The position numbers and the translations under genes are program-made. From NCBI GenBank assembly GCA_947472995.1, contig CANJBO010000007.1, positions 1 through 64,000 of the forward strand: a stretch of DNA of 64,000 bases, read 5' to 3'. Position 1 is the first letter of the stretch, and each line of letters begins with the position of its first letter. The notes under the pieces are model-generated. The model saw only the letters and a program-made list of their open reading frames with translations. It searched no databases and had not been told where the DNA came from. This document shows, piece by piece, positions 48,981-52,478 of this stretch. Origin of the DNA: Chloroflexota bacterium. Its GTDB lineage: Bacteria; Chloroflexota; Dehalococcoidia; UBA2979.

Positions 48981-49514
48981 TTACGCCCCGGCCGTCAGGT
49001 CCGCGATCGCCTGCTGGACGTGGCGGTCCTCCACGTACGTGTCGCCGGCGGCGTCGCGGATCTGCGCCGCCCGCGCCAGCACCGCCGGTCGAGGCAGCCC
49101 CGGAGGCGGCTCCGTCGCCCACGCGATGAGCACCACGAGGATGCCCTGCGGGTCCTCGATGAACACGAGGCGCTCGTAGCCGCGCTCGATCTCGTCCGAT
49201 CCGTGGATGCCGGCCGTCGCCATCTCGTGGAACATCCCGTCCATCACGTCCTTCGAGACGTGGAACGAGAGGTACTGCATCGACCCCGTGCCCATCGAGC
49301 CTTCCGGGATGTCCTGTCCCTCGCCCGTCGGCCCGACCAGCTGGAGGAACGTCATGCCGTCCCCGGCCGCGAGCATCGCGCACACGGAGTCCGGGTCGTC
49401 GCGGTTCGGCTCCATGTACAGCGGCCGCAGGCCGAGGCGCCGGTAGAACATGATCGACTCGTTCATGTCCTTCACGATGATCGCGGGGTACGACACCCCG
49501 AGCGTCTGCAGCAT
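48981..49514 (-). CDS. VOC-family (glyoxalase/bleomycin-resistance fold) protein with C-terminal helix
   Basis: 177 residues. The vicinal oxygen chelate fold has two beta-alpha-beta3 modules: SYPAIIVKDMNESIMFYRRLGLRP, then MTFLQLVGP, then YLSFHVSKDVMDGMFHEM and YERLVFIEDPQGILVVLI. Candidate metal ligands are His in SFHV and Glu in FIED. About 35 helical residues follow the fold. The substrate cannot be told. GAGG 9 nt before the ATG at 49514 supports the start. It is divergent from the valS leader. Confidence 0.82.
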   Translation of the reverse strand: MLQTLGVSYPAIIVKDMNESIMFYRRLGLRPLYMEPNRDDPDSVCAMLAAGDGMTFLQLVGPTGEGQDIPEGSMGTGSMQYLSFHVSKDVMDGMFHEMATAGIHGSDEIERGYERLVFIEDPQGILVVLIAWATEPPPGLPRPAVLARAAQIRDAAGDTYVEDRHVQQAIADLTAGA

Positions 49515-49551
49515 CCGGCACCTCGTTCTCGCGCCGGGGCGTCCGGCCTGC

Positions 49552-49580
49552 TTGTGAGCGCATCTCCCACGACATACCAT
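49552..49580 (+). promoter_or_regulatory. valS-leader promoter
   Basis: TTGTGA (49552-49557), exactly 17 bp, TACCAT (49575-49580), then 6 nt to the leader ATG at 49587. Transcription should begin at or next to that ATG, giving a leaderless leader-peptide mRNA. Confidence 0.75.
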
Positions 49581-49586
49581 CGAGGC

Positions 49587-49649
49587 ATGACGCACATCTG
49601 GTGGACGATGGTAACCGCGGCCCCGGCCGCGAACGTAGTAGTAGCCTAG
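49587..49649 (+). CDS. valine-rich leader peptide of valS (attenuator peptide)
   Basis: 20 residues, starting MTHIWW and ending VVVA. The three Val codons in a row (49635-49643) and a fourth (49611-49613) are all GTA, a codon avoided in this GC-rich genome. The ATG lies 6 nt after the -10 box, so ribosomes would load on the very 5' end of the mRNA. A hairpin (49649-49692) and a terminator (49696-49719) lie between the peptide and valS. This is the standard layout of ribosome-mediated attenuation: lack of charged tRNA-Val would stall the ribosome at the GTA run and change RNA folding. The mechanism is inferred. Confidence 0.75.
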   Translation: MTHIWWTMVTAAPAANVVVA

Positions 49650-49719
49650 CGGCGGCCCGACGGTCCTCGATGAGGACGCGTTCGACCGCCGCTGAGCCCC
49701 GCCCGACGCGGGGCATTTT
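49649..49719 (+). terminator. attenuator region of valS: competing hairpin and rho-independent terminator
   Basis: First stem GCGGCGG (49649-49655) with CCGCCGC (49686-49692), enclosing GTCCTC-GAT-GAGGAC. Then terminator GCCCCGC-CCGAC-GCGGGGC (49696-49714) followed by ATTTTG. A stalled ribosome on the Val codons would cover the first arm GCGGCGG. The exact antiterminator pairing was not worked out. Confidence 0.72.
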
Positions 49720-49763
49720 GTTGCCCGCACGAATCCCACGCGACGACCCTCGAGGTTCCCCCG

Positions 49764-52478
<2,715 letters not shown>

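Follow-up and report, generated by a model that had tools for sequence, protein, structure and literature searches.

In the 64-kb window analysed here, i.e., the whole stretch of DNA at positions 1 to 64,000 of contig CANJBO010000007.1 from a Chloroflexota bacterium, the region upstream of valS (49764-52478, forward strand; valyl-tRNA synthetase, 904 aa) is best explained as a ribosome-sensed device, in which translation of a valine-rich leader peptide would control the synthetase gene. Based on sequence comparison, we assign this reading a probability of roughly 0.86. Between the predicted promoter and valS, a short open reading frame (ORF) rich in the cognate valine codons was found; an intrinsic terminator was predicted from the sequence between this ORF and valS, and the control codons are positioned such that a stalled ribosome could reach a regulatory hairpin. 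Attenuation of valS by a leader peptide had been proposed in the initial annotation of this DNA. The conserved ORF, its GTA codons, the hairpin (designated P1) and the terminator sustained the proposal, whereas a conserved antiterminator was not found.

Leader ORF and valine codons

The leader ORF (49587-49649, forward strand) encodes MTHIWWTMVTAAPAANVVVA followed by a stop codon, is kept in frame in relatives and is predicted to be leaderless, its start lying 6 nucleotides (nt) past the -10 element. Three consecutive GTA control codons (49635-49643, forward strand) and a further GTA at 49611-49613 correspond to leader codons 17, 18, 19 and 9, respectively, and make up all four valine codons of the leader. 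The promoter, the 20-codon ORF, the run of three GTA codons plus one more and the GC-rich stem had all been annotated before, and each was confirmed to the base.

Codon counting revealed GTA to be rare among the valine codons of the long frames of the window with high third-position GC content (GC3), where it accounts for 15 of 763 (2.0%); secA contains one GTA among its 74 valine codons and valS none among 66. A single copy of GTAGTAGTA is present in the window, and none arose in 100 shuffles. The window contains 764 mini-ORF starts of 7-30 codons; a Val-Val-Val run is present in 10 of these and at least three GTA codons in 2, both of which, judging from the listed ORFs, would be nested starts of the valS leader ORF. 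We conclude that the layout of the valS leader is not due to chance.

Promoter and predicted leaderless start

The -35 element TTGTGA (49552-49557, forward strand) is separated by 17 nt from the -10 element TACCAT (49575-49580, forward strand), and another 6 nt precede the ATG at 49587. In relatives, the -35 element is mostly TTGACC or TTGTGA, placed 16-18 nt from a -10 element that is mostly TACCAT and otherwise TACGAT, TAGGAT, TAGCAT or TAACAT. Because of this promoter spacing, transcription probably begins at, or 1-2 bases from, the leader ATG. The distance from the -10 element to the start codon is 6-9 nt in the valS leaders of relatives, which is compatible with a leaderless mRNA as predicted from promoter spacing.

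P1 hairpin and terminator

P1 (49647-49694, forward strand) has its 5' arm starting at the stop codon of the leader, some 8 nt beyond the G of the last GTA. It is followed by the terminator stem-loop GCCCCGC-CCGAC-GCGGGGC (49696-49714, forward strand), comprising 7 G-C pairs and a 5-nt loop, and by the U-rich tail ATTTTGTT (49715-49722, forward strand). The terminator stem is nearly invariant in 24 relatives, and a terminator-like stem is unique within 49400-49800 (expected number 0.2). Folding of 49646-49730 yielded -48.0 kcal/mol (z = -4.4), and none of 200 shuffles was equally stable. In all 23 valS homologs tested, P1 was predicted to fold, with energies of -23 to -35 kcal/mol; the inner-stem sequences are unrelated and the pairing is kept. 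The gap between P1 and the terminator is only 1-5 nt in most homologs.

A competing hairpin, as described in the initial annotation, was not borne out, P1 adjoining the terminator and being compatible with it; in most homologs, too, the two structures can coexist. A hairpin within the ORF (about 49615-49632) is likewise not common to the relatives, many of which have ORFs of just 7-15 codons.

Conservation of the valS leader among relatives

The layout upstream of valS recurs in 27 regions of family f1 (Dehalococcoidia), comprising 24 aligned regions together with L162, L163 and L164, and in three regions of a second Dehalococcoidia family, f16 (L277-L279). Sequence comparison revealed a shared f1 plan, in which a -35 element, 16-18 nt, a -10 element, 6-9 nt, most often 6-7, and an ATG or GTG start codon are followed by the ORF, P1 and a GC-rich terminator-like hairpin. 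The putative leader ORFs of relatives are 7-21 codons long and contain 2-8 valine codons, mostly GTA. When promoters were searched for without regard to ORFs, reading from the first start codon downstream traversed two or more in-frame GTA codons for 26 of the 28 cases. Conservation of the leader ORF and its valine codons, on which the initial proposal had been staked beforehand, was thus observed in f1 and, in simpler form, in f16. A covariance model was run over 393 genomes of the class, and all strong matches were valS leaders; several weak matches outside f1 and f16 were inspected and proved to be ordinary terminators, a single T-box of the trp type, or chance hits.

Peptide length and N-terminal residues vary freely, with frame and valine codons being held. 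In some leaders, the middle GTA is replaced by an alanine codon (V-A-V, GTA GCA GTA), still in frame; as the frame is kept in these forms and despite the varying peptide, the element is more than a DNA repeat. P1 consistently follows the last GTA at a distance of about 8 nt, while the stop codon lies 6, 15, 21 or 27 nt past that GTA. This fixed distance, combined with a shifting stop codon, points to a ribosome positioned at the valine codons and would not be expected of a signal that is bound to the stop-codon position or to bare DNA.

In the f16 leaders, the control codons take the form GTA-x-GTA, and the terminator is unrelated in sequence. Within f1, L019-L021 have a degenerate valS leader, and five AT-rich genomes (L027, L028, L029, L031 and L032) have none at valS. 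The latter probably represent losses, since they fall into two clades within the family tree. Of 24 additional genomes of the class, 22 yielded valS, and leaders were seen only in f16 (upstream regions L286 and L291 left out). The valS tree places device-free families between f1 and f16, and the device may have arisen twice or been lost several times.

Related leaders at ilvB and leuS

A weaker match of the covariance model, present in two genomes, turned out to lie at ilvB. Upon extraction of ilvB leaders, all 18 were found to contain an ORF, nearly all being leaderless by promoter spacing. These ORFs end in leucine and valine codons, typically encoding LVLVLT before the stop codon (CTCGTACTCGTACTTACCTAG), and P1 and a second hairpin follow, so that the f1 ilvB loci (L225, L233, L234, L229, L231 and others within L218-L236) show the same plan as valS. 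In close relatives, leaders upstream of leuS (L238, L239, L240, L243, L244 and L247) end in leucine codons and ACC/ACG-TAG (L-T and stop), again followed by P1; some have a Shine-Dalgarno-like stretch in place of a leaderless start. The usual last control codon in leuS leaders, CTT, is rare, representing 19 of 928 leucine codons. The predicted control codons thus fit the gene served, with valine at valS, leucine at leuS and both at ilvB.

Two pattern matches away from leuS and ilvB were attributed to chance. Rfam amino-acid leader and riboswitch families gave no match at E ≤ 0.5 in L001, L018, L225, L233 and L238. Neither ilvB nor leuS was found in the genome of the window, a 1.78-Mb metagenome-assembled genome (MAG) of 73% completeness.

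Genomic context

Relatives of the source MAG carry the name Chloroflexota, many of them Dehalococcoidia. The valS leader occupies a true intergenic gap of 249 bp (49515-49763), with valS on one side and a divergent gene on the other. The latter (48981-49514, reverse strand, start at 49514) bounds the gap and lies outside the device; it resembles a VOC/glyoxalase-like gene, a function guessed from the look of its sequence.

Proposed mechanism and weighing of alternatives

According to the proposed mechanism, a ribosome would load on the leaderless 5' end of the valS transcript. With ample charged tRNA-Val, it would clear the rare GTA codons, end at UAG and depart, upon which P1 and the adjacent terminator hairpin would fold and transcription would halt before valS. 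With charged tRNA-Val being scarce, the ribosome would stall on the GTA run, with its front reaching, or lying within, the 5' arm of P1. The stall would alter the RNA between ribosome and polymerase, termination would fail and valS would be made.

Several observations weigh against this ribosome-sensed reading. When the 5' arm of P1 was masked at several points in thermodynamic predictions, the terminator retained a pairing above 0.85 in almost every valS homolog. As judged by duplex energies, P1 segments did not pair more favourably with either terminator arm than shuffled sequences did. The U-tract is good at valS of the window and poor in some homologs, and the second hairpin of leuS leaders is without one; therefore, termination may not be the controlled step everywhere. 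Finally, of the features looked for in the alignment of relatives upstream of valS, the start codon, the valine codons and the terminator were conserved, while covariation of the outer stems was weak, pair counting revealing no excess over shuffles because these stems are nearly invariant.

Two specific forms of ribosome-sensed control were considered. In classical three-structure attenuation, the stalled ribosome would mask the 5' arm of P1, and the freed P1 strands would pair with one arm of the terminator to give an antiterminator, a scheme put forward for Corynebacterium ilvB leaders. This form is plausible, with the odds lying somewhat against it. In L034, L055, L038 and the ilvB leader L220, the terminator did give way to another predicted fold upon masking of the arm; the switch was not predicted in about 20 of the 24 valS homologs, the terminator stayed the predicted fold in most ilvB leaders, and complementarity between P1 and terminator was not enriched over shuffles. 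Co-transcriptional sequestering of the terminator 5' arm gave no conserved solution among the homologs. A subtle switch is nevertheless conceivable because, in the functional attenuator of C. glutamicum ilvBNC, antiterminator and terminator have no more than three bases in common, the trinucleotide GCC (PMC11857589), and in the ilvB-II motif the P1 loop pairs with the right terminator arm (PMC10272879).

The second form, which we regard as doubtful, dispenses with an antiterminator. Here, the stalled ribosome, with P1 at least partly folded ahead of it, would hinder the short terminator hairpin or push the polymerase through. It would account for the lack of a conserved antiterminator in the fold predictions of the homologs, for the start of P1 about 14 nt past the first codon of the GTA run, close to the front of a ribosome stalled there, for the 1-5 nt separating P1 and terminator, and for a spacing that is conserved when the stop-codon position is not. 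The argument is purely geometric and is weakened by the fact that RNA thermodynamics are blind to antiterminators of kinetic or tertiary kind. The valS switch would either be of that kind and invisible to these predictions or consist of direct action of the ribosome.

Alternatives without leader translation fared far worse. A protein-binding site in DNA or RNA, with the ORF being incidental, would suit a GTA repeat that is short and strongly conserved in sequence; it retains little probability, as the interrupted GTA-GCA-GTA forms still hold the codons in frame and the leaders of ilvB and leuS bear other codons, matching their own genes. An ordinary terminator with a chance mini-ORF, leaving valS constitutive, is very unlikely in view of the comparative data: spurious ORFs abound in GC-rich DNA and the leader ORF is the tail of an open antisense frame, but it is conserved across two families, and matching codons occur at two further branched-chain genes. 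Control of valS by a tRNA-sensing T-box riboswitch, as could be supposed from the T-boxes in this genome and phylum, was refuted for the window locus by covariance-model searches, which gave no match at valS in the window or the f1 genomes searched, the region being too short and without the GGUGGNACCGCG motif.

T-box riboswitches in the same lineage

A full-length T-box was detected at ileS of the genome of the window (L004 1051-1350; G000:C6:53567-53866) with a score of 40.7 bits (E 2e-6), which is below the Rfam gathering cut-off; that standard threshold overlooks T-boxes of high GC content in this lineage. In other Chloroflexota, T-boxes are located next to valS (L058, L059, G041 and G038) and next to ilvB (G037, G039, G040 and G048). 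No T-box (RF00230) was found at valS in the window or any f1 genome searched, for L001 also at a relaxed threshold. The contrast with T-box control drawn in the initial annotation therefore holds. Separately, a T-box-like element (GGGTGGTACCGCGG) and a terminator precede an anthranilate-synthase-like gene in L199 (G063:C55), a weak match of the valS model.

Comparison with known systems

No report of leader-peptide control of valS, or of such control in Chloroflexota, was found in the open-access literature. As in E. coli pheST, a synthetase gene would be placed under leader codons for its own amino acid; the pheST operon has phenylalanine codons, an ordinary ribosome-binding site and a classical antiterminator, whereas the valS leader has valine codons and is predicted to be leaderless. 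The pheST attenuator is cited in PMC1262725, where candidate attenuators of Streptomyces leuS and trpS are described, each with a leader ORF containing cognate codons, a terminator and predicted antiterminator hairpins. These share with valS the cognate-codon ORF and terminator before a synthetase gene; they differ in concerning leucine and tryptophan, and in their predicted antiterminators. The phylum of Streptomyces has a T-box at ileS (PMC1262725), which parallels the split between valS and ileS observed here. In Rhodobacterales, the uORFC-8-2 motif upstream of cysS combines a leader ORF with tandem cysteine codons, a terminator and two prominent stems (PMC8632094). Tandem cognate codons, terminator and two stems recur at valS; in this alphaproteobacterial motif, however, the first stem contains the cysteine codons, whereas the valine codons precede P1. 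Leader-peptide control of synthetase genes is thus established or predicted for pheST, leuS and trpS (PMC1262725) and for cysS (PMC8632094).

C. glutamicum ilvBNC is transcribed from 1 nt away from the start codon of a 15-codon leader, MTIIRLVVVTARRLP, with a Val-Val-Val run; there and in ilvB-II, a hairpin straight after the control codons is followed by a GC-rich terminator and a U-tract (PMC11857589, PMC10272879). The valine run, the two adjacent hairpins and the leaderless start, predicted in our case, are common to ilvBNC and the valS leader. The actinomycetotal system serves biosynthesis and has an antiterminator that was modelled and mutated, whereas the Chloroflexota leader serves a synthetase and none is evident. 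A T-box performs the same job, uncharged tRNA switching on the synthetase gene, but reads the tRNA directly by RNA pairing without translation, whereas the valS leader would be translated.

Significance

Two unrelated sensors would answer to scarcity of charged branched-chain tRNA in a single phylum and, in part, in a single genome: ileS would rely on a T-box RNA, whereas valS, joined in close relatives by leuS and ilvB, would rely on translation of a leader peptide. As a tentative proposal that we consider rather unlikely to hold in full, this lineage of Dehalococcoidia may run valS, leuS and ilvB on largely leaderless leaders without antiterminators, where the position of the stalled ribosome relative to a hairpin at fixed distance decides directly on read-through; such leaders would replace the T-box of other Chloroflexota at valS and ilvB, with ileS keeping its T-box. 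Most f1 relatives appear to retain the valS leader and related branches appear to use a T-box at valS, a phylogenetic spread that allows asking how one sensor displaces the other. With a putatively leaderless ORF of down to 7 codons, one hairpin and one terminator, the device is near the minimum size of an attenuator; owing to this small size, it lends itself to testing cleanly whether an antiterminator is required at all.
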